From assembly GCA_015039365.1 (NCBI GenBank), contig WION01000196.1, positions 1 through 64,000 on the forward strand: a stretch of DNA of 64,000 bases, written 5' to 3'. The DNA is from Amanita rubescens (lineage: Eukaryota > Basidiomycota > Agaricomycetes > Agaricales > Amanitaceae). The translations under genes and the position numbers were made by a program. The stretch's first letter is position 1, and the number at the start of each line of letters is the position of its first letter. The notes under the pieces are model-generated. The model had not been told where the DNA came from and made no database searches. It saw nothing but the letters and a program-made list of their open reading frames with translations. Positions 341 through 58,958 of this stretch are shown in pieces.

Positions 341-994
341 GCCATGTTGCAAAAGGATGCAAAATGAACTGCACCTTTTCCTGATGTCTTGATATGGCAT
401 ACCCCATGATGACAACAATGGAGTATTATTGTGATTAATGCAATTTGCATTAATCCCCTATCAATGCCCTGGGATGGATAGTGAAGCCAGACCTTCCTAG
501 ATGGCATTGTGCACATGGGTGGACCAGGGTAGACCAACCTCTACAAAGCGAGATAGTAACTCTCATGTTGCCAGATCACAATAAAGCACCTATGCCAAGT
601 TTGCCAGAAGTTGATTCTCAACATAAAACTCAATTCCTCTCTTCATTCTCTTCAATCTTGTGTGACTGTTCTTTTCTGAGCCTAGTATCACATCATATTC
701 ACATGTGCACTGCCCCATTATGTCTATGACACTATAAATCTCAAGACTGCCAGTGGGGACATATAAGCAATAGAATTCAAATTACAACACCAATAATGTC
801 TACATCAGAGAGAAAATTTGAGACAGATGCATAGGCAGCCAAGGGAACACATATGAGAAAGTTGATCTATGTGCAGATAAATATGATCTCAATGCAGAGG
901 TGGTGCAGCTAATAAATCACCTGGATACCATGCCATGTGTTTCAGCCTGCCATAAATTGTTCATAAGTAGTCCATGACTAGGCAAAGTACATAC
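341..994. other. CpG-poor stretch downstream of the G-domain gene
   Basis: No convincing exon was found. It lies 3' of the minus-strand G-domain gene and may hold its last short exon and 3' UTR, because the conserved exon ending near 995 is followed by a good donor (GTATGT). Base composition matches the CpG-depleted domain that continues to about 7.6 kb. Confidence 0.4.
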
Positions 995-3900
995 CATCAA
1001 TATGAGTTGGCACCTGCCTATGGAGTAATGTGACAAAATCATGATGACCAGAGTGCATAAAGTTAGGAGTAATGTCAGTCTTCAGCTTCTGGACATAGCC
1101 TTTTTGCTTGTATTGATCCAAGGCCTCTGTGACTGATGGCAGAAATGGTTTATTGATCCAAAAGGATAGCTTGGCAATGATAACAATTGCTTGAAAGTTT
1201 AAGCATAAATACAGTAAATGAAAGAAATAATTTACAAACTAAGATCTGGCAATCAGTTATCTTATTCTGCAATGGCATCAGTTGTTTGCTACACACTGGA
1301 AAAGAAACAAATAAAAACCTTGATGTTCCTTTCCTTGTCTCTAAACATGAACTTGCTGGCTGCAAAGTCCCTTTGCTTGTCTCCAAACATGGAGCAAAGT
1401 TCACCCTAGTAGTTATCAGATAGAGTAAAGCATCCAATGTATCATCAGACCTACAGGCTAGCATGCAAGCCAATATCAACATCAAAATCTCATGAACCAG
1501 CAAGGCTACTCACCTGGAAATCGAGGAAAGTGATATAAGTGAGACTAATGATCACATGAGGTGGCAGTGGGCCAGCTGGAATCTTACAATCTGTGATGAT
1601 AATAATGTAAAAGGAAGGCATGTTGGAAAAGATATGGCAACATGCTCACTTTCTATAATGATATATTGAACATCAGTGAATTGAAGAATGTACTAAGATC
1701 AGAAAATTTGCAATGTCACTCACAAGCTGTTGGTCAAAGGAAAAGAAGTCATGAGACTGCCTGTCACAAAATATACTATGTCATTCACTCCCTGTCAGTC
1801 ACAGGAAAAAATGTGATGAGACTGCCTTGGAGAGAATATACAATGTCACTCACTTGCTATTGGTCACAGGATTGAAAGAGCTTTTCACAAAATGTGCAAC
1901 ATCACTTACCAGCTGTTGGCCATAGATGAGACTGCCTTTCTCAAAATGTCCAATGTCACTTACTTCCTGTTGGCCATATTGATGAGACTGTCTTTCATAA
2001 AATGTGCAATGTCACTCACAGACTGTTGATCATAAGAAAAAATGTGATGAGACTGCCTTTCACAAAATGTGCAATGTCACTCACTTGCTGTTGGTCATAG
2101 GATAAAATGTGATGAGACTGCCCATCACAAAATGTGCAATGTCACTAACTCGCTGTTGGTTATAGGAAAAGATGCAATGAGATTGGCTTTCACAAATTGT
2201 GATAATGTCACCTACAGACTATTGGTCATAGAAAAAGATGTGATGAGACTGTTTTTCACAAAATGTGAAATGTTACTCACTTCCTGTTGATCAGTTCAAT
2301 ATGGTGCTGAGATTGCCTTCAATAAAATGTGCAATGCCACTCACAAGCTATTGGTCATGGAATAAATGTGATGAGACTTCCTTCCTTTCACACAATGTGC
2401 AATGTCACTCACAGACTGTTGGTCATAGGAAATGCTGTTTACAAAATGTGTAATGTCACTCACAGACTGTTGGTCACAGGAAAAGAGCCAATTCACAAAA
2501 TGTGCAATGTCACTCACAAGCTGTTGGTCATAAGAAAAGATCTGATGACACCACCATTCACAAAATGTGGAATACAGTCACTCACTCCCTGTTGATGATA
2601 GGAAAAGATGTGATGAGACTGCTGTTCACAAAATGCACAATGTCATTCACTTCCTGTTGGTCATTCAAGGAAAAGATGTGATGAGATTGCCTTTCACAAA
2701 AAGTGCAATGTCACTCACAGACTGTTGGTCATAGAAAAAGAATGTGATGAGACTGCCTTTCACACAATGTTCAATGTCACTCACTTGCTGTTGGTCATAG
2801 GGAAAGATCTGATGAGGCTGCCTTTCACAGAATGTGTACTGTCACTCACTTGCTGTTGGTCATAGGAAAAGATGTTTGGACTTTTATTATTATTACAAAT
2901 CACACAACATCAGTGACTCACTTGCTGGTTGTCATAGGAAAAAATGTGATGAGACTGCCTTTCACAAAATATGCAATGTCCCTCACATACTGTTGGTAAA
3001 ACATGTAATGAGACTGCCTTTCACAAAATGTGCAATGTCACTCACTTGCTGTTGGTCATTGGAAAAGATGTGATGAGATTGCCTTTCACAAAATGTGCAA
3101 TGTCACTCACTTGCTGTTGGTCATAGGAAATGATGTGATGAGACTGCCATTTATAAAATGTGCAATGTTACTCACTTGCTGTTGGTCATTGGGGAAGATG
3201 TGATGAGCCTTCCACAAAATGAACACCACTCACAGACTGTTGGTTATAGAAAAGGTGTGATGAGATTGCCTTTTACAAATTGTGCAATGTCACTCACAAG
3301 CTGTTGGTCATAGGAAAAGATGTGATGAGGCTGCCTTTCATCAAATGTCACTCACTTCCTGCTAAAGATGTGATAACTTGACTGCCTTTCACAAAACATC
3401 ACTCACTTGCTGTTGGTCATAGGAAAAGATACAATGAGACTGCATTTACAACAAGATGTCCATTGAATGCCACTGTGTCACTCACTTGCTGTTGGTCATA
3501 GGAAAAGATGTGACAAGACTGGGGCCTTCCACAAAATGTCTAATATCACTTACTTCCTGTTGGTTGTAGGATAAAATGTGATGAGACTGCAATTAACAAA
3601 ATGTCTATGTGACTCACACGCTGGAGTCAGTCATAGGAAAAGATATGATGAGACTGCTTTTCACGGAATGTGCAATGTCACTCACAAACTGTTGATTATA
3701 GGAAAAGATATGATGATGAGAATGTCTTTAACAAATGTCCAATGGTCACCATGTCACTCACAAACTGTTCCATGGTTAGAGGAAAAATGTGATGAGGCTG
3801 CCTTTCACAAAATGTCCAATATCCAAGTCACTCACAAGCTGTTGGTCATAGAAAAAAATGTGATGAGACTGCCTTTTACAAAATGTCCAATGTCACTCAC

Positions 3901-6900
3901 TCGCTGTTAATCATAGGAAAAGATGTAATGAGGCTGCCTTTCACACAGTATATGTAGTATAATGTCACTCACAAGCTATTTGTCATAGGAAAAAATGTGA
4001 TATTATGTCACTATGTCACTCACTCGCTATTGGTCAAAGGAAAAGATGTGATGAGATTGCCAAGTTTTCACAAAATATCCAATCATTTTACTCACTTGCT
4101 GCCATTGGTCATGGGGAAAGACATGATGAGGCAGCCTTTCACAAAATGTGCAATGTCACTCACTTCCTGTTGGTTATAGTACAGGGAAAGTACTGCCTTT
4201 CACATAATATGTAATGTCACTCACTCTCTGTTGGTCATGAGGAAATATGTGATGAGACTGCCTTACACAAAACATGCAATATCACTCACAAGCTGTTGGT
4301 CATAGGGAAAGTGCCTTTCACAACAAGTGCAATGCCATGACTCACTTCCTGTTCATTGTAGGAAGAGATATTTTTCTCAAATTGTACAATGTCACTCACA
4401 GACTGTTCAAGGTCATAGTAAAAGATGTGGTGAGGTGACTGCCTTTCACAAAATGTCCAATGTCACTCACAAACTGTTGATCATTGGAAAATATGTGATG
4501 AGACTGCCTTTCTCAAAATGTGCAATTCCATAACTGACCCCCTGTTGATCATAGTAGGGAAAGATGTGATGAAACTGTCTTTCACAGAATGTGCAATGTC
4601 ACTCACTTGCTGTTTATGAAATGAGATGTGATTTTCACAACATGTGCAACTTATGATGTCACTCACAGACTGTTGGTCATAGCAACAGATGTGATGAGAT
4701 TGCCTTTCACAAAATGTGCCATGTCCCTCACATACTGTTGGCAAAAGATGTAATGAGACTGCCTTTCACAAAATGTGTAATGTCACTCACTTCCTGTTGG
4801 TCATAGTAGGAAAAGATGTGATGAGATTTCCTTTCACAAATTGTGCAATGTCACTCACAAGCTGTTGGTCATAAGAAAGATGTGATGAGACTGCCTTTTC
4901 CAAAATGTGCAATGTCACTCACTCGCTGTTGGTCATAGGAACAATGTGATGATACATACTGCCCATCACAAAATGTGCAATATCACTCACTCGCTATTGG
5001 TCATGGTATATGATGAGACTTGCCTTTCACAAAATGTGGAATATAGTCACTCACTCCCTGTTGGTCATATGGAAAGATGTGATGAGATTGCCTTCCACAC
5101 AAATCTTCAACGTTGCTCACATCCTGTCAGTCATAGGGAAACAATGCATAGAACAGTTTTTTCAGTAATATTTACAATGTTACTCACATACTGTTGGCAA
5201 TAGGCAAAATTTTGATGAGGTCATCTTTTGAACAACTAAATCAGCTTGACATGTTGCTAACCACCTATGTTTTATAGGAAGACATGCAATTTTGCTGCTT
5301 TTCACAAAACTTGCAATATCACTTACAATCTGTAGAACAAATGAATGTGTCCAAATTGTCCTGTACAAAATGGCCATCATCACTCACTTCCTTTTAGAAT
5401 GGAATTAGCATCATGAATTTGGAAAAAAGAATGCACTGCACTAACTCTCTTTTCAATGCCATAGTGTTCATATCATGAATTCACACCTCACAAAAGGATC
5501 ACATACATCCTATTTGTCTTGGAATAGCTTGTGAAGAGGCTTTGAAAAGGAGGAATATCTACCATCTGTTGTTTTGGGACAAGATGTAATGCTAATGAGC
5601 AGACAGGAAGGAAATGTCACTTGCTTTCTGTTATTGATTCAATGAAGTTGAGACTTGCTTTCAGATAATTATATGTCACCCAACTTTCTATTGTTCATTG
5701 AGTTACATGTCTGGTACCTGCACAAAAACCAATGTTGCTTACTTTCTTTAAGTAGATCAGATGTGGTGTGAAGCAGTGTTGTATTACATACTCACCCCCT
5801 GTCCATGAGAGACTGGATTAACAACTCTGCTTACAATGATAGATTGGCAACTCACTTGCTATTGGTCATATGATGCACCATGGGACCATTTACAAAAGAA
5901 ATCAAAATTAAGTCATGGCACTCACTTCCTGTAGATTATGAGACAACACTGTTGATCACAAAAAGAAGCACTGTTACTCACAAACTGTCTTACCCACTGA
6001 TATCAATATCATCAGATCTTGCACCAAGAATATGGTGAAAACTAACCTGCCCTTCATCCAGTTGTTCATTGATCATCTGAATCATGACTAATCTTGTTTT
6101 CATGTGAAGGCATTGGAGTGTTACTTACTTCCTGATGAACTTTGAAAGTATTTATCATTCCATATGAAGGCCACCTACTGCCCTGTCCACCTATTACCAT
6201 TTAAAGCTTTCTGTGCTAATGTGCAGTTTGACAAGAATACACACCCAGAAATGTGGAAATTTTGAAAAAATTACAAGAATGACTTGATCCCATGTCCACC
6301 AATCTTTGTGTTTCAGAACATGTCTGAAGTTTGAACAATGTTGATGTTAATAAGTAACATGTTGAATGTTTAAGTGACCCTCACTGAAGTGCAGATTTAA
6401 CACAAAGGTCAAGATTATTCATCTGTGTTGAAACAAATAGTTGATGTATGCTGTCATCATCTATTGCATCAGCAGTTTTCTGAGTTAATTCAGCACAATT
6501 CTTGTCCAGTAAATCCATGTCTATGAAACAATATTAATCCCATCTTTTGGCAGAAAGAAAAATCTTACCTTCCAATCGTACACATGCCTTGGGAGGATAT
6601 TTGGTGTTCAAAACTTTAGGAAGATATACTGTCTGAAAAGTGGTTTCAGCAACTTCCCTGGCTCTCCCCCACTTATCTTCATCATGTGCATCAGTCAAGT
6701 TGACAAATTCACTGGATATTTGACCATCAAATTTAGTGAATATAACCACCAAAGGAACTGTTGAGGAAATATTTACTGGTCAACACACTGTAAAATTAGT
6801 ATTTAGCAATAGTTACCTTTGCCTGTTCCTTTATTAAAGAATTCAAGTTCTGCAGGTAGGATGGGACGAGGACTGTCCATGGGTATGCAGTACCTACAGG

Positions 6901-7548
6901 AAGCCAGGTCAGCCAGTACTGTAAAGAGATAGAGCAAGATACCAAATTGCATGCAACTGGTTTTTCAGCTCAGTTTCTGCAGACTTCTTTTCAATGAACC
7001 TCCAAGCAGCATCCAATTCCTCAGTTGAACCTGATTCAAAACCCTGAGAGTCATGGAAGATAAAGTTACTTCCAGGGTATGTAATTTGATGCTCAATATC
7101 ATGCAGGCCTCTCTGTTAGAGTCATTTGCATGTGAATAAGTCCATACATCATCATCTAACTCACCTCATGTGATGGCACCAAATGAATAGGAGACTGTAC
7201 AAGCTGATTACCTGCAAGAAATTCAAAATCAAAGGAAGCACAAAACTCAAACTGACTGTAGTACCACTCTTGTCATATATGATGGCAATTGTCCCCTTTG
7301 CTACACCACAGACCTTCTCAAGGATGGTTGTCTTGCCTGCATTAGCCCTCCCAATAAGAAGGATGTGAAAGTGCGGGCATTGATAGCGTTCCCTGAGCTC
7401 TTGAACATGTGTCTCAGAGTCTGTATCTGCAGTGATATATGTCAGCCAAGGATTAGCAATGCTAAGTCACACAAATTAGCCTACTACTCAAAGAACTTGA
7501 AGGTGCACCACTAGTTGTAGCTGCCATGACTGAAGACGAAGTACTCAT
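995..7548 (-). CDS. G-domain (P-loop GTPase-like) protein with a giant micro-exon array
   Basis: The start is ATG at 7548-7546. Recognisable exons follow on the minus strand. Exon 2 carries the Walker A motif GRANAGKT (about 7310-7360). Next come an exon with NQLVQSPIHL, an exon with FHDSQGFESGS (about 6950-7115), an exon with MDSPRPILPAELEFF, an exon with VVIFTKFD (6570-6765, a G4-like TKFD), an exon with LLDKNCAELTQKTAD, and an exon ending in FSKFPHFW (about 6200-6320). A 30-nt exon lies at 6047-6076. C-terminal conserved exons are PAGPLPPHVIISL (about 1513-1589) and AKLSFWINKPFLP (995-1172). Agaricomycetes carry many such G-domain proteins of unknown role. Between the two conserved halves lie about 70 intron-like units. 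With canonical borders, the last two exons do not join in a single frame to what precedes them, so extra small exons or pseudogenisation are possible. The 3' end is undefined. Confidence 0.75.
1650..6131 (-). repeat. Array of ~70 intron-like units separated by single triplets
   Basis: On the minus strand every unit ends in an acceptor (consensus TTTTCCTATGACCAACAG). Exactly three variable bases follow, then a donor (GTGAGTGACATTGC). Unit spacing is 46-79 bp with a mode of 65, so each inferred intron is about 43-76 nt. The 70 triplets are CAA 13, GAA 11, CTT 8, TCT 8, CGA 5, AAA 4, TTT 4, GGA 3, TAT 3, AGA 2, GGG 2, GAT 2, and ATG, ATT, GTG, CGT and CTG once each. None is a stop. Donors are mostly GTGAGT, with some GTAAGT or GTTAGT and one GC donor (GCAAGT, near 5620). 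Units nearest the G-domain exons (5.2-6.1 kb) are the most diverged. Those at 1.7-5.2 kb are similar to each other. Splicing itself is inference. Confidence 0.85.
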
Positions 7549-10384: not shown

Positions 10385-13300
10385 ATGCAGTCTCTCGAAA
10401 CATTAACTCTCACACGAAGACGTAGTTGGGGTCAAGCCAGTTCAAATGTTGTCTCTCCCATGAACCTCGATACTTTCAACCACGACCCGCGTGTCGTCGA
10501 CGCGTTTGAAGAGACTGAAGATGATCAAGCTCGTCTCACTCAAAACATTTCGCTCACAATCGACACTTCCCTTAGCCATGATACAGAACACCGCGCTGGA
10601 ATGTCCCCTCGTTCTCGTCGCCGTACAAAACGTTACACTCCGGTCAGTCCAGTGAAAATGACTGGAAATGTAGTCAAGTCCGTTTCCAGGAGTTTACATA
10701 GGGCGTCACTCCGCGTCGTCAATCTATCAAACGCCGGTCTTTCGAGCCAGATTCGACTACCGGACGATGATGACGAGGAAGAGAATGAGGAGCAGGACGA
10801 GCCTTTGCAGCAGGAGCAGGAACAGCGGAGGAATACCCCATTACGTGGTCGGACCCTCGGGTTCTTTGGTCCAGAGAGTAGGGTCCGCTTGGCTTTGAAT
10901 ACGTTCCTTCTGAATAGGTACGTCATGCTTAATGTCTGGTGGAGTCGATTGACGATCTTATCAGGTGGACGGAACCTTTAATACTCGTGCTGATCATCAT
11001 TAATGTCGTTGTCCTCACTATGCAATCTGCGCGTTCATTAACGTTACCATCTAATGGTACGATCACCTCGCAAGGCTACTTTCATACTTGGGAGGACTTT
11101 GCACTTTTCGTCATCTTCGCAGTATATACGTAAGTGACTCTTTCAAATGTGTAGGTGTTTAGTCTGACCCTCCGTAAGCTTGGAAGCTTTCTCCCGGATG
11201 TGTGTATCCGGTTTCCTCTTTGACCCAGAGGTTCCTTTCTCTTCCTTATTTTCTCCCCGGGATTGGGAGAACTCTTCAATCACCCCTACCTCTGCAACTA
11301 CATCTCTATCCCGCCAACCATCTCTTTCCCGCGATACATCCATAAGAAGGACATTTTATAAAATACAACGTGTTCTAGTACGACCTTTTACCCTTGCACC
11401 GGCTGCGAAAGGACATTACTCTCATCCATCCGTATCTCCCTCAACCACTACCATCGTTCCCGAGAAACTAAAACGCGCACATGACGCTTTCCGCAACCCC
11501 TCTCCCCAAACATACTTTTCCAATTTTGTCAAGTCCGATTCCGACAAGCTTGCACTTCCTTTTCGTCTTAACGTTCATCAAATCCATGACCAAACGCGTC
11601 GAAATCTGCCCTACCTCCGCAATAGTTGGAGTAGGATCGATTTCGTGGCTATCGTCAGCTTTTGGATTTCGTTTGCATTGGCATCTGCGGGGTGGGAACG
11701 AGGCGCGCACCATATTGGCGTGTTCAGGGCGATGAGTGTGATTAGGTGCGCCCGACTGTTGGCTGTGACGGCTGGAACGACGGTGAGCCGCTCCGTACGT
11801 GACTAGGTTTTTTTCAACTGATGACGGTTTCTAGACTATTATGCATTCGTTCAAGTTGGCTGCGCCACTTCTCGGGAGCACAGCCTACTTTATATTATTT
11901 GCCATGATGTTATTTTCGTGAGTGTACACATTCATCATCGTTCCCATTTCCTGATTAGGTTTTAGTATTATAGGTGTACAGAGTTTTCGAGGTTCCCTAA
12001 GGCGCTCGTGTTATTTGCAGCCAACGCTAGGGGAGAACCAAACGCAGCTCCAACAGTTTTGTGGTGGGTTTATTAATGCCACCACGTTGGACATTTCGCC
12101 CTATGTCAAGATGGATGGATCCATCTCCTCGACCGCCAAGGGGTTCATTTGTCCCCTCGGGCAGGTCTGTATTGTGAGTCGCATCTTAGTCTCTAGGCCG
12201 ATTCCGCAATATTAAAACGAGACACGCGCCTAGGAAGCAGAAAATCCCAACAGCAACATTGAGAGTTTCGATACGATTTACAATTCTGCTTTGCAAGTGA
12301 TCGTCATTGCCAGTGCGAATACGGTGAGTCGCTCGTAATTAATGCCGGATCGTCACTCAAAACGAAAAAAAAAAAAACAGTGGTCGCAACTTATGTATTA
12401 TACGCTTGACGCAGAGTACTTTGTCTCGTGCATCTTCTTTATCATATGCATCGTCGTCTTGAACTTTTGGCTGTTAAACCTTTTCGTAGCTGTTATCACC
12501 AATACGTTTTCGTCCATCAGGACGGTGACGAACAAGAGCGCCTTTGGTGCTGCACCGTGAGAGTCGTGATTAAAGTCTTCTCTTTTGGATGAGCTAACGT
12601 CGTCGTTTTCTAGCCTTGCAGCGAGCGTAACGGACGAACAAGATGACGAGTACTCCAAGGCAGGACGAGTCATACCTAGGCGTAACTGGGCCTACACAGC
12701 CGTTCAACACACAGAATGGTGCTGGATCCTCCTCGCCCTCGCTTCCACCATACTCCAAGCTACGAGAACGGTGGGGATGAGCAGCTGGCGAGAAACCCTC
12801 CTTTACTACGGCGAACTGGTTATCACTTTCGCCTTTGACTTGGAGATATTGTTGAGGCTTTTCGCTGCGTTGCCGGACTGGAGAAGCTTTTTCTTGCATG
12901 GGAGGAACGTGTTGGATTTGGTCCTTGCTATTGGGTCAAGTGTGATTCAGCTGCCGGTTATTTATTCGTCCCCGGTGTATCCCTGGTTGACCGTCTTCCA
13001 ATTGGCGAGATTTTATCGTGTGATATTGGTTTGGCCGAATATGAAACCGATGATGGTCAGTCGTATTTGTTGCGCTCGACTCGTGCTGTATGCTAATTTT
13101 TGCGACTTCCTAGCTCGCGGTGTTTGGTAACCTGTACGGGTTACTCAACATGACTTTCTTTTTGCTTCTCGTCAACTTCATCGCGGCACTCGTAGCTGTC
13201 CAATTTCTGCGAGGAGACGTTTCAAATTCACAATTGATGGACTTTGGAAATGTTTACAATTCCTTTTTGGGTGTTTACCAGCTCTGTTCTTCAGAGAACT

Positions 13301-16300
13301 GGACGACGGTTCTTTACGGCGCTGCCACGTCTGAAGTCCCGTTTGGTCAAGTGGTCCTCACAGTGGTCTATCTTTCGTTTTGGCTGTTGTTTTCGTACTG
13401 TGCGTCTCTGTTCCTTGTATAGGCAACATAACTGACCGTTGGAACAGTTATCATTCTGCAGATGTTTATTGCCGTTATTAACGAAAACTTTCAAGTGGCA
13501 GAAGAGATTAAGAAAAGCAAACAAGCATCGAGTTATTGGGCGATGCAGAGGAGCGAAGAAGCTAGGCCAAGTTGGATGCGCAAGCTTAACCCGTACAGAT
13601 GGCTCAAGGCGAATCCCGTTACCGTCAAAGTGGACAATCTGCCTTCGAACCTTGTCCTGCCTATGCAAAAATCATTGGTGCAGGACTATAATCGCGTTCC
13701 AGTGTTTGAACGGTCCAAGAGTGTTTGTATTCTGTGTGTTTTGGGGCTGTGGAATTGTTTTATTGACGATCGTTTTAGAAATCGCAAAGGCCGTCCAAGC
13801 CAGGGCATTATGTATCAAGGTCAATAACGGCCCTTCATCGGTTATTTGTTGGGGAGACACATTCGAATGTTATTCCGTTAAAGAATCTGCGGCATGCTCG
13901 GGAGGAGACAAGCGCAGAGGGATTGATGCAGGATGAGGATGAACCAGACCGTAATCTGTACGTGATTGCTTCACAATGCGCGGTGTTTTGTCTGATTCGG
14001 AGATAGGGCGCTATTGGCTGCCATCAACGGGGCAGGGGCGAGCAGCGAAGATCTCAATGACGTTTTGTACGAGCGAAGAGCACAAAAGGCTGATTTCATT
14101 CGTAATCACCCTTCGTACGACGAGACGTTTTGGATGTTTTCGCAAAATAATCCACTTCGGAAGATGTGTCAAAAGCTGGTGCAGCCTGCAAATGGGGAGC
14201 GGCTATTTGGCACGCCATGCTCTCCCGTTGCTCATCCGATCTTTCAGCTCGTTTTGTTGTTGGTCGTACTGGGAGGTATAGCTGTAGAAGGTGTCGCGAC
14301 GCCCCTCTATCGGCGTGCGTGGTATGCGGAGAATGGAACGACCCGCGGTTCTTGGTTCGATATCACCAATACGGCATTTGGGCTCACCCTGGTCGTCGAA
14401 TTTCTGATCAAGATCATCGCCGATGGATTCTTGTTCACCCCAAATGCATATATCAAGAGCGGATGGAACATACTGGACTTGTTCATCATGACCGGTGTTC
14501 TCGTCAGCGTCGCGACTGGTCTTGTGTTCATTGGTGGTCTCAGCAGATTGACGAGGGCACTCAGGGCACTTCCGGCTCTCAAGTTGATCACGCTGATCGA
14601 CAAGATGCGGTATACCTTCCAGTCATTGCTTATCGACGGCGCACCAGGTATCCTGCACGCTGCCCAGCTCTGTATTCTGTATATGATACCCTACGCTATC
14701 TGGGGTCTGAACATCTTTGCTGGGAAAATGAACGAATGTACGGATACCACCGTCCATGGGATGTCCGACTGCATATACGAATACAACAACAATGTCATTG
14801 GTAGTGCTTTCGGCTTCACAGCTCCTCGCGCTTGGAACAATCCCGCGCCATCGACAGTCTTTTCGTTTGATTCGTTTCGAGATTCGTTGTTGATCCTTTT
14901 CGAGATTGTATCTTTGGAAGGATGGATAGACGTGTTGAACGTCGCGACCAGCATCACTGGGACAAATTTACAGCCTCAGATGCATTCATCACCGGCCAAC
15001 GCAATCTTCTTCGTAATCTATAATTTGCTAGGATGTGTTGTTCTTTTGACGATATTCGTTAGGTGGGTTTTGTTTTGTCGTTCTTTGAAGGTCAAGCATA
15101 CTTATGGTGGCGGCTTCGTAGCATCATCATCGGTAATTTCAGTGCGCGGACTGGGATGGCGTACCTCACCGGACCTCAGAGGGAGTGGATTGACTTGCAA
15201 AAGCTTATCAAGCGCCAACGACCTTCAAAAAGGCCAAAAGTCAAACCGACGAACCCGATTCGGGCTTGGTGTTTTGACCGCGCTGTGCAGAAGCACGGAT
15301 GGTGGTCTAGAGGGATAACTGTCATGATCGTTTTCCATATCATCGCGTTGATGTATGTTCGTTAATTGCCATCGATCAACCCATCTAACAAGAGAAACAG
15401 GACGCAAACCTACAATTCCGCCGGGAAGAAAGACCGGATTCTCAGTGAGTTTAGTGTTCTCTTCTTTTCAGTTGTTTGACCGTCAAACTTAGACTACTTT
15501 TTCCTGGCCTTTACTGCCATTTACATTGCGGACGTTGTGGTAAGGTCTTTTGGCCTGGGCTGGTTGAGCTTCCGAGCGAACGGCTGGAATATCTTTGATG
15601 TCTTTGCATCCACCGGAAGTTTCATTACAACTGCGATAGTGCAATCTGGATACACTGGGTACGCTATTGAGCAGTTGCAAAAGCTTTTCTTGGTCAGCGT
15701 TGCCTTCAAACTCGTTCAGAGAGCGGACAGCCTGAATATGCTCTTCAAAACATCCGTGTACGTTTATGCTTGCTGTTATTAAACATGACGTTGACTTTTT
15801 CTTACCAGCGCGAGTTTGCCAGCAATTTTAAGTTTGGTTGGTCTATGGGCGGTTTTCTTCATCTTTTTCGCCATCCTGTATCTGGAAGTGTTCGGCATGA
15901 CCAGGTGGGGCACAGCCGAAACTAGATACCAAAACTACACCTCTCTTGCGAGATCGATCGTGATGTTGATCTTTATGAGCACAGGGTACGTGGTGACTCG
16001 CGGATAATGCGGTTAGAGATTCATACATCACTTCAGGGAAGGCTGGAATCAATATATGCACGATTTGTGGGTACATATTTGATTACATCGTCCATCTGTT
16101 CTGATGCGTCTTAGCACACTGGAATACCCTCATTGCACTGAAGAAGGAGAAACTGACTGTGGTAGTGCCGCTTGGTCGTTCTCGTTATTCATTGCGTGGA
16201 ACTTGTTGAGTATGGTAAGCTCAGTGTATTATTTGACTTGCCTGAGCGCTCAATCTTCCTTCTAGTACATCTTTGCCAACTTGTTTACCGGTCAGTATCG

Positions 16301-17785: not shown

Positions 17786-20700
17786 TCATGACTGTCTATG
17801 CCGAGGACGCCAAACACCAGGTTTTTTCTCTGGCACTGTTTGGAAGCCGTCCTCATCCTTAGCAGGTTCCTCTTTCCTAGGGGGCAGAGCAGAAGATGCT
17901 GGTTGAGTAGCGGCAGGTGGATTAGCACCACCGCCGGCGGCTTGCTGCCTAGCTTCCTCGCGTGCACGCCACCCACCACCGCCAGAGGAAACTGCGGCAC
18001 TTGCGCCAACTCGTAACCGACTAGTCCTTTCAGCAGGCGCCGGGCTCTCAGGACGAGTCGGAGGTCCTGTAGGTAGAGCACCTCTTCTCCATGTGTCTCC
18101 TCCATTTTGAACGGCTGCCACGGGTGCTGGGGTGCCAAGTGGCTTCCGCTGTAAACCAGCTTTTTCTGCCGCTTTTTCTGCGGCACGTTGTTTTCGGTGT
18201 TGTTCGGCCTCTTCCTCCCTCTGTTGCTGTCTCCGGACTCTTTCGAGATCGGCAAGACGGTCTGCCTCTCGCTGCCTTCGGCGCTCTGCCGCTTCCTCCT
18301 CTACCTTGCGTTTCGCCTCTTCTTCCGCAGCTTTTTTGGCCTCTTCTTCTCTCTGTTGTCGGTCTTCTTTTGCTCTCCGCTCTGCAACGGGTCAGTTTCG
18401 ATATACTCAATGTAAACTGTTTAACCGAACCTTCTTCGAGCCGTTGCTCCTCCTCTTCCTTCTCCCGCTTGCGCCTTTCCTCTTCTTCCTGGCGATGCTT
18501 CTCCTCTTCCCATGCTTTGACTACAGCCTTTCTCTTCTTCTCCCTCTCTTCCTCGATCTTTTTTCGGGCCGCTTCCTTCCGCTTAGCAAATTCTTCGCCT
18601 TTCTTTGCCAACAACACTTCTTTACGAGCCGAAAAGTCGTTCATCATCCGAGCAAGGCGAACCTTGGTAGCAAGATCCTCTTGGTGAGTTGTCTTGGAAG
18701 ATTCCTTCCGAGCCTTTTGGGATGCTTCGAAGGTCTCGCGATCTGCCTTTTGTTGCTGTTCGTAGTCCTGAGCCAGGAGGGGATGTTCTTCTTTTCTGTA
18801 TGCACGCTCAATGTGATCTATGCGTTTTGATACGACGCGTAAGCGTTCATTTAGCCCCTTCTTCTCCTTCTCAAGCTGTGCCACTTGAATGGTGATAAGA
18901 CCTTCCGTGTCATAGTTTTCGAGCTTCTGTGTGCAACTTATCAGTTAACAATTTCCATGATTTGTGATGCACTTACATCGACATCATTGGCCTTGAGAAT
19001 TCCCTTAGTTACCAGACTCTGGGCGTACTTCTTGGCTTCGTCGATCTTAATCGACTCGATCTCTTTTCTGGCTCGTTCCTGTTCCTTGCGTCTCAAGTCT
19101 TCTCTTCGGCGCTTCTCTTCCTCCTCTTTCTCCCGTCTACTGATCTCTGCTCTCCTACTCGTCTCCTCTTTCTCCTTTCGGACGCTGAGCTCGCTGAGCA
19201 GCTCTCTTCTCTTAGCCACCAGCGCACGCCGCAAGCGTAAAGCATGCCTTTCGGCCTCTGCTGCTGCCACCAAAGACTTGAACTTTTCAGCCTGCTCTTC
19301 AGGTGATAGAGAAGCCTTGGGCTCAATTATCTCCAGTGACTTGTGAAGAGTCGTCGCGATCCGGCTTAATCGGGTCCTCACAAACTCCGCCATACTGGGC
19401 TGAACGAAACCTTCGCTTGAAGTGCTCGTTTTGGCCTCTGGGTTAATCCTTGGCTCATCTGTTAAGACGTATGGGTCGTCAACGAAGGTGATACTTCCAT
19501 CCTTGTGATCAACGCGGATGTTCAGTTCGCCACGCCTAGCGCAACCCATAATGTATGACGCTAATTGCTCTTCGTCAAATGCGCCCTCAATCCCTGCATC
19601 CTTGAGGGGTTTAACCAAGGCATTTAGGTTGTCGATTTTGACAGTTGAGTAGACTTCGGAAAGCTGCAGGAATAGTCGTGAGAGGAGAGCTCTCTGGAGA
19701 AGAGATAGATATGGAGCATATGCTTCGTCGGCGGACAGTTGTTGGAGAAGGGGTGCAACGGAAGTGCAAAGAGTAAGAGGATCGAATGTGACTTCAAGGA
19801 TGTTGTATAATGACTTGATAGTTGGAGGAGATAGTTTCAAGACGTCTCGGGAAAGCTACAAGAACATGAAAAGACGGCATATGGTGGCAACGATAAAGAG
19901 CTCACCGCGTCCTTGAGCAACCCTGCGCGGGTTGGCATCTTAGAAAGGCCAAGCAGAGCAGTGAGGCGGGCATTTCGACCCTTCAACCCATCTTGATCTT
20001 CGAGTTGGAGACCGACAGGTACCGCTAGGGCGCTAACGAGGACCTGACCGGCGAGCCTGCTCAGCTCTTCCTCTGATTTTCCCCCAATAGACATGACAAT
20101 GGAATAATATCTGCTCCAGGCAGCGGCATGATAAAGCGCGTTACCGCTCATCAAGAATATCTTGGTGAGCTTTTCGTAGTAGTTCGCCATCATCGCAGGC
20201 CGTGGGGCCTTTTTCGCCATCGTCAACAAGTTATGCACATCCTCCACTGATCGGAAGGCTTCCTGCCAAAGCTCCAGTTCAACAGATGTATTCAGCTGGG
20301 CGAAGCGAGTGTCAAGGTGACGCTGTAGCGTATCGGGGTCAGAGAGGTTGATTGCATGGGGTTGATTAGGATATTTTGCGATATTCCCGAGATGCAGCCG
20401 CAAGGTCTCGCATAGACGTCGGAATTCGACTTTTCTGCTGTATTTAAGGCAAAACTTAAATGCTTGTTGAGCGATTTGCTGCCAACCGGATCAAAATATG
20501 TAGAGTCAGGGTTACTGATACACTCACCTGGTATATCGTCTCCAATCTGGAGTTGTTTTTTAATGTCTCCAGCGAAGTCCTATAACTCTCCCACAAAAAC
20601 TTTAGCCAGGGTGTGACCAGAGCACGGTCGGTGCGATCTTTATTTTGGTCACCGCTAACGGCGCCGAGTAAGATGCTTTCTGGGGTCTCGCTGGCTTCCA

Positions 20701-21055
20701 AATCATCGACATCCACTGCAGATTTCACAGCCGCCTTTTCCTGTGCATCACGAACTTTTGCATCGGCCAACTGAACAAATCGAGTGATGACGGCTTCTAT
20801 GCTTTGCACATTGAGATTTTGAGCGATATTCTTGTATTGCATCAGGCCTTCCTTTGCTGTTCGCCCTTTTCGCAATTCTACGCAGAGTTCGATGAAGCGG
20901 TGCGTAATCGGTTCCAAAGAGGTTAAAGGTGTGGATCTAAAACGCTTCGATGCGAACATTTCCGACAATGACTGCAATGCCGCATGAGTCTGGCCGACAG
21001 AGACAAGCCCTTCGGCTTGCTTGAGCACCGTTTCGGGTTTTGAGAAGGGCGCCAT
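17786..21055 (-). CDS. TIF32: Translation initiation factor eIF3 subunit A (TIF32)
   Basis: eIF3a is the scaffold of the eIF3 complex on the 40S subunit. The N-terminus begins at ATG 21055 with [17 protein letters not shown]. The middle has the PCI region (about 19400-20000, [12 protein letters not shown] and YILEVT-like stretches). A long charged coiled coil follows, rich in EEKRRR (18430-19350). The tail holds [16 protein letters not shown] just before the stop at 17786, typical of fungal eIF3a. Several short introns are visible (near 20430-20520, 19850-19910, 18930-18975 and 18375-18430). The length of about 1,000 residues fits the family. Its 3' end lies 240 bp from that of CCH1. The long Ser/Leu/Phe-rich frames on the opposite strand are shadows of the coiled coil. 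Confidence 0.95.
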
Positions 21056-21422
21056 GATGACTGGAACACGGTTATAAGAGGTTTATTTGAGTGAATGGGA
21101 GATTTACTGGAATGAAACGGGATTCGTAGGGCGCCCGACTTCCGCTGATGGTTATGATTTGACTCGGTCGGCTCTTCAGCGATACACTCGCCGCTGTGTG
21201 TACGCCTGCAAAAATTAGGTTTGGCTTTAGGGCAGGCTGCTCGGTACCGTCGCGGCGTTCTCCGTATTACATAACAAAGCCCGATCGCCCCGCTTTCGCT
21301 ACATACATCAATCTACTCGCATATCTCGTTTTTCCCCCACCACCTCATCCCAGCCCCCCACAATGACGCTCAATTAGACCTCCAGTCCTAAAAGAGAATG
21401 CCACTAAGAAACAAAAAAACAA
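21056..21422. other. Upstream region of eIF3a
   Basis: No gene is supported. It should contain the eIF3a promoter and 5' UTR. A pyrimidine-rich stretch lies near 21300-21360. The segment around 21410-21470 resembles 36270-36310 (both contain AAAACTCACCT next to GTCCTGTT or GTCTTGTT), so it may already belong to the dispersed element that follows. Confidence 0.4.
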
Positions 21423-29522: not shown

Positions 29523-30797
29523 TCAAGTATAAAGGTTCGCAACGTAGCGAACGGTCTTATCTAATGCCCATTCCCCACCATTAAACCCAAAGGCATCAGT
29601 AAGCTTCTGAACCGGACCAAAGTTCCCATTCCCTTCGTTGTACGAAACCCATACTGCATTCTCTCCAAAGCCGATAATATCCGCGGTCCCACTACCCGTC
29701 AAATCAACAACAAAACGCAAATGCTTCTCAACACGCCATCCGCCGGCATTGTATCCAAAATTCTTGATAACTAGTTTGGCAGGCTGGAATGTGCCATTAC
29801 CGTTGTTGAGTGACACGTATACTCCTGCATCACCAAAACCGACAATATCCCCCCGTTTGTCGCCTGTAAGGTCAGCTACAAACCTCGGGTGTTTATCGAC
29901 GCGCCATCCTTGTGCAAACGCAAAGTTATTGAGCACCATTGTGACGGGTCCGAATGTTACGTTGCCTTTGTTGAGAGAGACGTAAACGCCCGCATCTCCG
30001 AAACCAAGAATATCGGCTTTTCCATCACCAGTAAGATCGGCGACAATACGGGGGTGCTTATCGATCTGCCATCCACCCGCACCAATGCAGAAGTTGTCAA
30101 TAACAGACGCAACAGGATGGAAGGTATAATTGCCGTTGTTACGACCGACGAAAACATGGTGTTCTCCGAAACCAACAACATCCAGGAGCCCATCACCAGT
30201 CACATCGGCGAGGAAACGCAGATGCCTATCTAGCCTCCATCCTTGGTTGAAACCGAAGTCGGCGAGCGCAAGTTGAGCAGGGCCAAATCCGCCACTACCA
30301 TTGTTGCGCGAAACCAGTATGCCTCCATCACCGAAACCTACAACATCAACGCGTCCTGTCCTCTTGATGTCTGCAACGAAACGAATATGCTTCTCCACAC
30401 GCCATCCTCCAGCAGAATACGCGAAATCTTTGAGGACGAGTTTTGGGTTCTGGAATGAGTTTCTCCCATTGTTGACGGAGACAAAAATTCCATTCTCGCC
30501 GAACCCAATAACGTCACTGGCGTGGTTGCCTGTGGTATCGCCGAGGAGACGGACGTGTTTTTCTACGCGCCATCCACCTGCGTTGTAACCGAAGTTGGCA
30601 ATAACAGGTCTGGCCTGGAGGTCGACAGAATTGCGTATGATGATAACGCCTTTAGTCCCAAAGCCGACAATGTCAGCGATTCCTGGTGTCGCAGTGGGGA
30701 CTGCGAATGAGCAATGGCCACGTTAGAATGCACAAACCAATTCTAAGAATTTATTTGATGTACCTGGTAATGCTTGGCTGATAACTTCGCCGGTCAT
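29523..30797 (-). CDS. PVL-type beta-propeller lectin (FG-GAP/VCBS repeats)
   Basis: Seven repeats of about 55 residues carry the pattern D-x-T-G-D-G-x-x-D-I-x-G-F-G-D/E-x-x-V (for example VADLTGDGKADILGFGDAG, 29990-30060), the signature of calcium-binding FG-GAP blades. Psathyrella velutina lectin, a seven-blade propeller binding GlcNAc/sialyl sugars, has the same length (about 400 residues) and lacks a signal peptide. I place the start at ATG 30797 (MTGEVISQALP). An in-frame ATG at 30905 adds 36 residues that the family does not have. One intron (about 30715-30777, donor GTACAT, acceptor TTCGCAG) joins in phase 1. Likely a cytoplasmic or cell-wall defence/recognition lectin. Confidence 0.9.
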
Positions 30798-55197: not shown

Positions 55198-58100
55198 ACG
55201 AGGCAAAGCCTCGCCTGCCCTTCGGGCAGGGGGGGTCGCCCCTTCGGGGCTCCTCACCGATAAGTCATCTGGCCTGTGGCCAGCTGAGGGTCGCCCCTAG
55301 CGGGGCTCCTCACTGATAAATCATCTGGCCTGCAGCCAGCTGAGGGTCACCCCTAGACAGATAAGTGTGGGCATGTTAGCTCTGTTAGCCTGTTGTCAAA
55401 CTGTGTTACTACACCCCTTCGCTGCGCTGCGGGGTGTGGGCGCTATATGCACAACATTTCCGTGTGAGGTGTGGGGACAGAATAGCCATATTTGAGATTT
55501 TAGTTTGATTTTTAAGCACTGTATTGATATCTAGCATTTTACATAAATTTTGCTGATTTTTATTATTATTATTTGGTGGAGGGAGGGAGGGAAAGAGGAG
55601 GGCAAGCAAGGGATCACACGAAATGTGCTTAAGTAATGCTTACATGAATTATTATGTCAGGATTATGTCAGGATTTGTCAGGATTATGTCAGAATTTGTC
55701 AGTGCGTACCTTTCCCACCCATCGTTCCCTTCTTTATAGACGAGGCTAAAGCCTCGCCTGCCCTTCGGGCAGGGGGGGTCGCCCCTGTTGGGGCTCCTCA
55801 CCGATAAGTCATCTGGCCTGCGGCCAGCTGAGGGTCGCCCCTAGCGGGGCTCCTCACTGATAAATCATCTGGCCTGCGGCCAGCTGAGGGTCACCCCTAG
55901 ACAGATAGTAAGTGTGGGCATGTTAGCTCTGTTAGCCTGTTGTTGAACTGTGTTACTACACCCCTTTGCTGCGCTGCGGGGTGTGGGCGCTATATGCACA
56001 ACGTTCCCGTGTGAGGTGTGGGGACAGAATAGCTTAGATGTGATAGGTGGGGGACATATTTGAGATTTTAGTTTTAGTTTTAAGCACTGTATTGATATCT
56101 AGCATTTAACATAGATTTTGCTGATTTTTATTATTATTATTTGGTGGAGGGAGGGAGGGAAAGAGGAGGGCAAGCAAGGGATCACACAAAATGTGCTTAA
56201 GTAATATTTACATGAATTATTATGTCAGGCTTATGTCAGGATTAAGATAGATAAAGTGCACAAATATATGCAATTACTGTCCCAATATCACATGAGGGCG
56301 TCAGAGTATGCATCTAGTATTTTACATAGATTTTTCAGATTTTTATAAGGTGGAGGAGGGCAAGCAGAGATCAGACTGGATCACGCAGATCACAGAATGT
56401 GCTTAAGTAATGATTATGTAAATTATTTGTCAGCTCTTAGTCATTTTAGTCAGCCTTAGTCAGAATTTGTCAGCGGGTACCTTTCTCAGGGCATTGTTCC
56501 CTTCTTTATAGACGAGGCTAAAGCCTCACCTGCCCTTCGGGCAGGGGGGGTCGCCCCTGTCGGGGCTCCTCACCGATAAGTCATCTGGCCTGCGGCCAGC
56601 TGAGGGTCGCCCCTAGCGGGGCTCCTCACTGATAAATCATCTGGCCTGCGGCCAGCTGAGGGTCACCCCTAGACAGATAGTAAGTGTGGGCATGTTAGCT
56701 CTGTTAGCCTGTTGTTGAACTGTGTTACTACACCCCTTTGCTGCGCTGCGGGGTGTGGGCACTATATGCACAACGTTCCCGTGTGAGGTGTGGGGACAGA
56801 ATAGCTTAGATGTGATAGGTGGGGGACATATTTGAGATTTTAGTTTTAGTTTTAAGCACTGTATTGATATCTAGCATTTAACATAGATTTTGCTGATTTT
56901 TATTATTATTATTTGGTGGAGGGAGGGAGGGAAAGAGGAGGGCAAGCAAGGGATCACACAAAATGTGCTTAAGTAATGTTTACATGAATTATTATGTCAG
57001 GCTTATGTCAGGATTAAGATAGATAAAGTGCACAAATATATGCAATTACTGTCCCAATATCACATGAGGGCGTCAGAGTATGCATCTAGTATTTTACATA
57101 GATTTTTCAGATTTTTATAAGGTGGAGGAGGGACGGAAAGAGGAGAGCAAGCAGAGATCAGACTGGATCACGCAGATCAGAGAATGTGCTTAAGTAATGA
57201 TTACGTAAATTATTTGTCAGCTCTTAGTCATTTTAGTCAGCCTTAGTCAGAATTTGTCAGCAGGTACCTTTCTCAGGGCATCGTTCCCTTCTTTATAGAT
57301 AGATAGACGAGGCTAAAGCCTCGCCTGCCCTTCGGGCAGGGGGGGTCGCCCCTGTCGGGGCTCCTCACCGATAAGTCATCTGGCCTGTGGCCAGCTGAGG
57401 GTCACCCCTAGCGGGGCTCCTCACTGATAAATCATCTGGCCTGCGGCCAGCTGAGGGTCACCCCTAGACAGATAGTAAGTGTGGGCATGTTAGCTCTGTT
57501 AGCCTGTTGTTGAACTGTGTTACTACACCCCTTCGCTGCGCTGCGGGGTGTGGGCGCTATATGCACAACGTTCCCGTGTGAGGTGTGGGGACAGAATAGC
57601 TTAGATGTAATAGGTGGGGGACATATTTGAGATTTTAGTTTTAGTTTTAAGCACTGTATTGATATCTAGCATTTTACATAAATTTTGCTGATTTTTATTA
57701 TTATTATTTGGTGGAGGGAGGGAGGGAAAGAGGAGGGCAAGCAAGGGATCACACGAAATGTGCTTAAGTAATGCTTACATAAATAATTTGTCAGCGATTA
57801 GTCAAGATTAGTCAGCTGAGTCAGTGGGTGCCTTTCTCAGGCCATTGTTCCCTTCTTTATAGACGAGGCAAAGCCTCGCCTGCCCTTCGGGCAGGGGGGG
57901 TCGCCCCTTCGGGGCTCCTCACTGATAAGTCATCTGGCCTGTGGCCAGCTGAGGGTCGCCCCTAGCGGGGCTCCTCACTGATAAATCATCTGGCCTGCGG
58001 CCAGCTGAGGGGGTCACCCCTAGACAGATAAGTGTGGGCATGTTAGCTCTGTTAGCCTGTTGAACTGTGTTACTACACCCCTTCGCTGCGCTGCGGGGTG

Positions 58101-58958
58101 TGGGCGCTATATGCACAACGTTTCCATGTGAGGTGTGGGGACAGAATAGCCATATTTGAGATTTTAGTTTGATTTTTAAGCACTGTATTGATATCTAGCA
58201 TTTTACATAAATTTTGCTGATTTTTATTATTATTATTTGGTGGAGGGAGGGAGGGAAAGAGGAGGGCAAGCAAGGGATCGCACTGGATCACACAGAATGT
58301 GCTTAAGTAATGATTACGTAAATTATTAGTCAGAATTAGTCAGCGCTTTGTCAGCTGAGTCAGCGCGTGCCTGTTCCCACCCATCGTTCCCTTCTTTATA
58401 GACGAGGCTAAAGCCTCGCCTGCCCTTTGGGCAGGGGGGGTCGCCCCTGTCGGGGCTCCTCACCGATAAGTCATCTGGCCTGTGGCCAGCTGAGGGTCGC
58501 CCCTAGCGGGGCTCCTCACTGATAAATCATCTGGCCTGCGGCCAGCTGAGGGTCACCCCTAGACAGATAGTAAGTGTGGGCATGTTAGCTCTGTTAGCCT
58601 GTTGTTGAACTGTGTTACTACACCCCTTTGCTGCGCTGCGGGGTGTGGGCGCTATATGCACAACGTTCCCGTGTGAGGTGTGGGGACAGAATAGCTTAGA
58701 TGTAATAGGTGGGGGACATATTTGAGATTTTAGTTTGAGTTTTAAGCACTGTATTGATATCTAACATTTTACATAGATTTTGCTGAATTTTATTATTATT
58801 ATTTGGTGGAGGGAGGGAGGGAAAGAGGAGGGCAAGCAAAGGGATCACACGAAATGTGCTTAAGTAATGCTTACATAAATAATTTGTCAGCGATTAGTCA
58901 AGATTAGTCAGCTGAGTCAGCCCGTGCCTGTTCCCACCCATCGTTCCCTTCTTTATAG
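55198..58958. repeat. Six-copy tandem satellite with TTCG-loop hairpins
   Basis: Units start at 55198, 55740, 56512, 57307, 57863 and 58402 with ACGAGGC(T)AAAGCCTC and measure about 542, 772, 795, 556, 539 and 557 bp. Units 2 and 3 are longer through an extra segment of about 220 bp (it contains GATAAAGTGCACAAATATAT). Every unit opens with hairpins: CCTGCCC-TTCG-GGCAGG, GCCCCTAGCGGGGC, and two copies of CTGGCC-TGC-GGCCAG. A T-rich middle, a (TTA)n stretch and GGTGGAGGGAGGGAGGG follow, then variable TTTGTCAG/ATTAGTCAG runs. Identity between units is very high. No transposase or long conserved frame is present, and the 66-72-codon frames on minus are incidental. Confidence 0.95.

Follow-up and report, generated by a model that had tools for sequence, protein, structure and literature searches.

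Exons of only a few nucleotides (nt) are known as isolated cases. APC11 of Arabidopsis has a 1-nt exon, and the known exons of 1 to 6 nt are single cases as far as the available part of that account goes (PMC4674806); two 3-nt exons are given for lipS of Dactylellina haptotyla in the available excerpt of another article (PMC5639578), and a passage from 2024 states that functional microexons have not been described in filamentous fungi (PMC11121469, excerpt). Here we report on a 64,000-nt stretch of Amanita rubescens DNA (assembly GCA_015039365.1, contig WION01000196.1, positions 1 to 64,000, hereafter the window), the minus strand of which carries a gene for a GTPase-like protein that contains an array of about 70 triplets. 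These triplets are very probably genuine single-codon exons; the sequence predicts that they are spliced individually, that canonical GT-AG introns of about 62 nt separate them, and that they spell a linker of the protein. Like the isolated ultra-small exons, which measure 1 to 3 nt between introns, they are extremely short; unlike them, they do not occur once or twice in a gene but about 70 in a row, each being a whole codon.

Intron gain in the Cryptococcus gene CNN00420 went through a repeat of about 107 nt that includes exon ends, by which two introns were gained and the number of which varies between strains (PMC2395259, in the part of the article available). The array is like that gene in having identical introns inside a repeat, and unlike it in having one codon per unit, dozens of units, and codons that differ despite the identical introns. 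Introners, for some known families of which the accessible text of one source gives target-site duplications of 3 to 9 base pairs (bp) (PMC9860276), resemble the array in that many near-identical introns derive from one sequence, here with 352 exact copies of a 62-nt intron in the genome; however, the copies listed here are stacked one codon apart in a single gene family, and in three loci most neighbouring codons differ, which speaks against a 3-bp target duplication.

No description of runs of one-codon exons was found among the matches listed in the open-access literature, a body that covers neither subscription papers nor preprints. The schistosome micro-exon genes and the aphid bicycle genes encode fast-diverging proteins from many tiny exons of several codons each; the array is alike in its many tiny exons, but each of them holds one codon and the protein is GTPase-like. 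As at the ratchet points of recursive splicing, the juxtaposed acceptor and donor of the array would regenerate a 5' splice site; ratchet points leave no nucleotide, whereas in the array one codon would stay at each step.

Triplets between splice signals in the window

The sequence-only reading of the window had claimed about 70 consecutive units, each ending in a textbook acceptor and restarting with a donor after exactly three bases. At the positions it listed, an AG was found directly upstream of 69 of the 70 triplets, followed by 68 GT donors and one GC donor; the single misfit, 4300, proved to be a coordinate slip, the true triplet being CTT at 4290-4292. With this one correction, all 70 very short segments in the window run from an AG to a donor (69 GT and one GC), as microexons do. 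The description of the units as consecutive holds for the main run, in which 69 triplets follow each other unbroken from 5982 down to 1650, but the triplet at 6129 is split off by a 30-nt exon; judging from the sequence, the main run is probably followed by one further triplet, ATT (1588-1590). The acceptor is textbook in its modal form, CCTATGACCAACAG, but is not invariant from unit to unit.

Read in frame 0, the corrected triplets are free of stops, the TGA of the uncorrected set having come from the misplaced position, and they spell E / F-E-Q-G-K-K-K-M-D-R-E-I-V-Y-D-G-R-R-L-E-Y-S-Q-G-F-S-E-L-R-E-Q-R-L-R-L-F-F-R-E-Q-Q-E-L-S-Q-Q-Q-Y-Q-Q-Q-S-E-G-L-S-S-L-E-S-R-Q-S-E-L-Q-G-L-K. Frame +1 is likewise free of stops and frame +2 has many, so the stops in the window alone cannot separate frame 0 from frame +1, neither of which has any. 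The choice of frame 0 rests on the upstream 30-nt exon MINEQLDEGQ, which sets it, and is tested by the stop count over the whole genome.

Gap length and reading frame across the genome

The window corresponds to contig C108 in an assembly of 75.7 megabases and 786 contigs. Units with exact flanks (CTCAC-NNN-CTGTTGGTCAT, or ATGACCAACAG-NNN-GTGAG in gene sense) and a 3-nt gap numbered 1,696 genome-wide (829 + 867), and the same pattern read backwards had no match; when up to three mismatches were allowed, 6,779 matches were obtained against 695 for the reversed controls. Since the units are related by descent, the genome-wide counts are not independent trials, and p-values computed from them overstate independence. 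None of the 1,696 triplets is a stop codon, where about 133 stops would be expected at the rate that the base frequencies per position predict in a sample of 670 triplets; the pattern YYA, which covers the three stops and tryptophan, matched 11 times, always as CCA, that is, as TGG. The sampled chains themselves contained one stop in 670 triplets, against 52.6 expected.

Gaps between exact flanks measured 0-2 nt in 17 units, 3 nt in 1,696, 4-5 nt in eight and 6 nt in 21, so that 1,717 of the 1,742 units counted at 0-6 nt had a gap of 3 or 6 nt, and the 21 six-nt gaps provide 42 codons with no stop among them. The statement that the exon is always 3 nt long is therefore nearly correct, the departures being these 21 gaps and 25 others, 22 of which occur at two loci, C749 and C13 (17/17 of the 0-2 nt gaps and 5/8 of the 4-5 nt gaps). 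From their sequence these two loci look like relaxed copies, and their gaps that are not multiples of three indicate that such length changes do arise by mutation. Intron lengths, in turn, ranged from 48 to 81 nt and fell into all three classes modulo 3 (385:46:45 of 476).

Exceptions were also inspected by eye, in 19 cases (a gap other than 3 nt and of at most 40 nt) among 589, eight more of 55-60 nt falling outside this inspection. Sixteen of the 19 turn into a 3-nt gap with a nearer AG or another donor, and three remain: 4 nt in L013, 6 nt in L022 and 9 nt in L026. Between the window and the closely related locus L009, donors have diverged by 3.5% and intron interiors by 12.4%.

Arrays in paralogous loci

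The P-loop exon of the window gene had 266 candidate places in its own genome, and all of the 150 that were scored matched, alleles included; the occurrence of several loci as near-identical pairs or triples points to an assembly of both nuclei of a dikaryon. Twenty stretches were fetched, of which 19 have the FPHxW site with chains of three-nt exons behind it, some of them short at a contig or array end (L018 and L024 are cut by contig ends); L012 has no FPHxW site and was dropped, so that 20 loci were chained, the window and 19 relatives. Near copies or alleles are present in all counts (L014/L015, L016/L017, L023/L024/L025 and window/L010/L009), and the loci are thus not independent. The chaining script linked AG...GT pairs from the FPHxW exon onward on splice-site scores alone, with exons of 1-40 nt and no preference for any length.

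Under this scheme, 1,019 of the 1,132 exons were 3 nt long, flanking ordinary exons and run-on ends included. Among the 18-90 exons of each of 12 reversed sequences used as controls, 0-20 were three nt long, with the maximum in reversed L023 (20 of 90, with 19 stops among them), and ten non-array stretches of the window gave no three-nt exon at all among the 6-21 exons of each. Zero-length exons called in L016, L017 and L021 were rejected as a chaining artefact, the zero point being the end of a longer exon (inspected in L016 and L021).

The read-outs have a common beginning. In most loci M-A-N-E-Q-L-S-E-T-Q, or a variant of it, stands on one 30-nt exon, the counterpart of MINEQLDEGQ in the window and of NEQLSETK and NKQLSEAQ in the proteins P0006 and P0048, respectively; it is followed in most loci by W/F/E/Q/G/K/K/E/T/D/R/E/I/K/Y/D/G, or a variant, with one codon per exon. 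After this core, the string is very different between loci and often ends in K/I.

Two loci on contig C1, L001 and L002, were at first isolated motif matches and were then found to be arrays with weakly alike introns: intron-to-intron alignment gave 0.48 against 0.37 for shuffled sequence in one and 0.455 against 0.355 in the other, and the opposite-strand chains gave 0.33 against 0.28 and 0.34 against 0.26. In these old arrays 42/48 and 33/40 of the chained exons are 3 nt long, without a stop triplet, and in the wider stretches of the same loci (L031 and L032), which have P-loop and FPHYW exons upstream, the figures are 50/64 and 44/55, again without stop triplets. Such retention of 3-nt gaps is not what a satellite in decay should show.

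Resemblance to proteins from intronless contigs

Protein relatives were taken from a search with the G-domain, as the best 120 of 932 proteins. Four JGI proteins, P0006, P0017, P0048 and P0051, read past FPHxW and come from contigs of 1.4-1.9 kilobases (kb). They were compared with the array read-outs of six chosen loci, using the residues of 3-nt exons only and 1,000 shuffles for each comparison, and 11 of the 24 locus-protein pairs beat all 1,000 shuffles. The window scored 82 with P0048 (shuffle maximum 64; 22/49 columns identical) and 69 with P0006 (shuffle maximum 51; 14/24 identical, essentially the core), L019 scored 98 with P0006 (shuffle maximum 54), and L031 scored 106 with P0051 (shuffle maximum 56; 23/53 identical), an alignment that spans all 49 residues read.

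P0051 runs on into the C-terminal domain that is encoded in the window near 993-1187, and it reads like a messenger RNA whose array codons have all been joined by splicing. The end of P0006, IVRFHFRGSPNPTSC, matches paralogues in the stretch beyond their last array codon (26.6 bits, a score reached by 0/60 shuffles), on which ground the idea that this protein is frame-shifted was rejected; the end of P0017, VCDIAQFSECQSHLNYCVT, matches the array introns in frame from the donor (consensus VSDIAHFVKGS...; 1/2,000 shuffles). In both proteins, the array seems to have been spliced except for a single intron that was kept. Because the proteins from intronless contigs resemble the triplet read-outs, and on account of the flanks, the stop counts, the gap length and the chaining, the one-codon exons are very probably spliced. 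The proposal that one-residue exons together form the Q/E/L/S/R-rich part of a G-domain gene gains support from the coding constraint, the protein resemblance and the old arrays.

Identical introns and differing codons

Fourteen loci, counting near copies, have eight or more introns of 62 nt, and all 14 yield one and the same 62-nt consensus; this exact sequence makes up 23/28 introns in L019 and 21/24 in L028. Among the matches listed (100 of the 352 exact copies), every one belongs to one of four array loci, C12, C13, C79 and C82, and none to another gene. In the young arrays L019, L023, L025 and L028, codon sites differ by 0.35-0.69 compared with 0.04-0.05 for introns, and neighbouring codons (lag 1) are equal in 22% of cases in L023, 35% in L019 and 38% in L028. 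Hypermutation or diversifying selection of the codons was considered but is not supported, since between near copies the codons of the same unit do not change faster than the introns (0/141 codon against 7/2,048 intron changes for L023/L024, 0/207 against 1/3,042 for L023/L025, 2/90 against 68/1,274 for L016/L017, and 18/204 against 351/2,821 for window/L009).

Plain duplication of units does not fit, because it would give equal neighbouring codons, and neither does random insertion of introns into a normal exon, because many multi-codon exons would remain. No ordinary duplication model explains identical introns together with differing neighbouring codons; the candidates are the reshuffling of old codons by recombination in identical introns and an intron that multiplies at codon spacing.

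We tentatively propose, as one possible scheme, that exon and codon coincide in this gene family: through the multiplication of a 62-nt intron the segment would have been split into codons, and recombination within the identical introns would reorder, add or drop residues with the frame kept intact, making the arrays a codon-by-codon diversity generator for a large fungal GTPase-like family, with sequential one-codon splicing and possibly in-frame skipping. For the splicing of the array as such, acceptor-bound and donor-bound complexes have no space next to each other on a 3-nt exon; the introns would therefore have to be removed in sequence, every round creating a fresh donor one codon along, much as in recursive (ratchet) splicing, with one codon kept per step. 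With every exon a whole codon in phase 0, the skip, gain or loss of a unit would preserve the frame, and the linker could change one residue at a time as a frame-proof variable region, which might serve recognition or drift neutrally. Over the compared array, a single 65-bp unit and a single intron substitution are all that distinguishes L023 from L025, a difference for which assembly error is possible; the unit amounts to one arginine (...DDRRYRRFEE... vs ...DDRRYRFEE...).

If single-codon splicing is true, a working exon can be as small as one codon, which would challenge ideas on the minimum size and crowding of exons, and gene models such as those listed here omit a whole variable region. 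If dozens of such exons are spliced accurately, the spliceosome would work without room for exon-bound factors between neighbouring introns. Splice order, recursive splicing, the multiplication of introns and the diversification of proteins without risk to the frame could then be studied on the arrays as a natural test bed.

Alternative explanations

It is quite conceivable that the array is neutral baggage in the sense of constructive neutral evolution, with units that duplicate, splicing that copes, and a disordered linker that tolerates almost any residue. The array-equivalent segments of P0051 (295-343) and P0006 (320-386) have a predicted local distance difference test score (pLDDT) under 50, and the variable strings differ greatly between loci, both of which agree with this neutral view; on the other side, the core W-F-E-x-G-K-K is found again in most paralogue chains as well as in P0006 and P0048, and dozens of spliced introns in each of about 20 loci would presumably be costly if useless.

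Compatible with the splicing of single codons, but rather unlikely, is an origin in which a multiplying introner-like intron invaded a pre-existing linker and came to lie between its codons, the introns being young and alike and the codons old and different. The one shared 62-nt consensus with its 352 exact copies points in this direction, as do the introns of L019 and L028, which are mostly identical though 62-65% of neighbouring codons differ, and the same-unit codons, which are mostly conserved between close copies. Random insertion, however, should leave many 6-, 9- and 12-nt exons, and 21 six-nt gaps were seen against 1,696 of three nt; a 3-bp target duplication predicts equal neighbours, but only the 22-38% given above for three loci are equal. 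Our estimate for this origin was lowered slightly because the copies listed lie in array loci alone.

Several points weigh against the view that the triplets are genuine spliced exons. We infer the inclusion of the 70 codons in the window gene from its relatives, and P0006, P0017, P0048 and P0051 are regarded as transcripts from their lack of introns. Thirteen of the 24 locus-protein pairs fail against the shuffles, for example the window with P0017 (129/1,000 shuffles reach the score) and with P0051 (1,000/1,000); L031 has no match to P0072 (259/500), the last 20 residues of P0048 match nothing here (52/60), and the score of the P0017 end is reached by 5/60 shuffles when the match is not anchored. 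Searches for relatives of the protein tails gave none at E <= 10 among 257 candidates, and only P0006 itself among five.

Some of the arrays also depart from the pattern. L031 holds a 4-nt exon, AGCT (base 2999), inside its one-codon run, where either the copy would be out of frame or the boundaries would be misread; this exon and the other exons that are not 3 nt long were excluded from the protein read-outs. L029 (C13) and L030 (C749) carry exons of 0, 1, 2 and 4 nt amid those of 3 nt, being relaxed copies or possibly making genuine use of other phases, L013 has one 4-nt exon and L027 one TGA; by their sequence, some of the copies are probably no longer intact. In the annotated A. rubescens protein P0089, FPHYW is followed almost at once by the C-terminal domain; this would be either a gene model passing over the array or a copy that lacks one.

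These departures bear on a very unlikely alternative, namely that the exons are real in the family but that this copy, or most copies, have decayed or skip the whole array as one intron, leaving a short linker. The two loci with many exons other than 3 nt, the 4-nt exon of L031 and the gene model of P0089 without array codons speak for it, together with L010 (C97), which is 98% identical to the window gene over 3.5 kb in a match that ends inside the array. Set against them, the window copy has usable flanks at 70/70 triplets and no stop, residues resembling those of the window array occur in P0006 and P0048, and automatic gene models can hardly place 3-nt exons and so say little.

That the array is an intronic satellite, a 65-bp tandem repeat in one large intron with incidental splice-like motifs, is extremely improbable; the sequence-only reading had already noted that a plain satellite does not explain a constant 3-nt exon at varying spacing. 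The units do form a tandem repeat with a period of 65, most introns of the young loci are identical copies, and P0089 reads past the region, but satellite DNA carries no constraint tied to a reading frame, which the array does, and it offers no reason for 0/1,696 stops, for a gap kept at multiples of three while the rest of the unit varies freely in length, for donors less diverged than intron interiors, for 3-nt gaps that outlast the decay of the repeat in old arrays, or for peptides that resemble proteins from intronless contigs. An unspliced coding repeat was likewise rejected, there being no stop-to-stop open reading frame (ORF) of at least 150 amino acids in the array and the 65-bp unit not being a multiple of three.

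Parts of the window gene and neighbouring features

Genuine single-codon exons would place the array as a variable linker from the GTPase-like domain to a helical C-terminal domain, and the parts of the gene are arranged accordingly in Table 1. The array had been described as lying between recognisable 5' and 3' exons of one gene. G-domain exons are indeed found upstream and C-terminal exons downstream, to which the array would be joined; the PAGPLPP stretch, which had been taken as the 3' exon, is more likely an intron, because the counterpart of PELFSVFG of P0051 appears to lie in the exon beyond it, at 1319-1405. Many of the listed Amanita gene models stop at or shortly after the FPHxW exon; among the listed proteins of A. 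muscaria, A. brunnescens and A. polypyramis, too, many stop there, before it or a little beyond it.

Table 1. Predicted parts of the GTPase-like gene in the window, in the order of transcription.
Feature	Position	Strand	Basis or remark
5' coding exon (MSTSSSVMAATTSGAPS), start of the GTPase-like gene	7498..7548	-	Translation and coordinates; splice end uncertain
P-loop exon (GRANAGKTT)	7269..7415	-	Matches across own genome
G-domain exon (RGLHDIEHQITYPG...)	6939..7112	-	Homology to P0051 and others
G-domain exon (YCIPMDSPRPILPAEL...)	6818..6892	-	
G-domain exon (VPLVVIFTKFDGQ...)	6570..6758	-	
G-domain exon (DMDLLDKNCAELTQ...)	6387..6521	-	
Exon HVLKHKDW-WTWD-QVILVIFSKFPHFW (FPHxW exon), last conventional long exon before the array	6245..6322	-	
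12-nt exon VDRA	6179..6190	-	P0006 has a matching VDRA
Predicted single-codon exon GAA (E), apart from the main run	6129..6131	-	Corresponds to E in P0048 VGRDEMANKQL
30-nt exon MINEQLDEGQ, separating the triplet at 6129 from the main run	6047..6076	-	Sets frame 0
Predicted 69 single-codon exons with their introns	1650..5984	-	Core F-E-Q-G-K-K-K-M-D-R-E-I-V-Y-D-G (5982 to 5055), then variable string
Probable last single-codon exon ATT (I), then GTAAGA	1588..1590	-	Sequence; K/I found again in the chains of several paralogues; P0006 continues from I into what follows
Exon (G)ELCSMFGDKQRDF..., probably corresponding to PELFSVFGEHSTFF of P0051	1319..1405	-	By-eye comparison with P0051
C-terminal exon IVIIAKLSFWINKPF...VPTHIDG	993..1187	-	tblastn: P0051 6.7e-9, P0072 2.4e-11

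The G-domain exons are under purifying constraint, the ratio of the proportions of nonsynonymous and synonymous differences (pN/pS) being 0.28-0.48 in six comparisons with pS above 0.1. In Pfam, the window protein scored 20.7 bits with MMR_HSR1 (P-loop GTPase), just under the curated cut-off of 21.9; P0001, an annotated near copy on C46, scored 36.1 bits, above the cut-off, and P0051, P0072, P0017 and P0117 scored 18.1-20.8, below it. In the structure look-up, rows of Immunity-related GTPase (IRG) ranked first, by a margin too small to assign the family there; a sequence search of the PDB with P0051 found no match, and the plasmid collection that was searched gave none either.

Immediately downstream of the gene, at positions 178-341, lies a 10-bp repeat, AAAGGTGGAA, in sixteen nearly perfect copies. 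Elsewhere in the window, several pairs of a 56-bp repeat (GGGTCGCCCCTAGCGGGGCTCC...) are spread across 3.3 kb at 55233-58562, and a 5S ribosomal RNA gene lies on the minus strand at 60897-61015. Long ORFs are present at 18000-21100 (minus strand) and 12500-15300 (plus strand), which we take to resemble eIF3 subunit A and a voltage-gated calcium channel, respectively, and a 399-amino-acid ORF at 29523-30722, presumably for a VCBS/FG-GAP-type protein, has repeated units of the type ADxTGDGxxDIVGFG.

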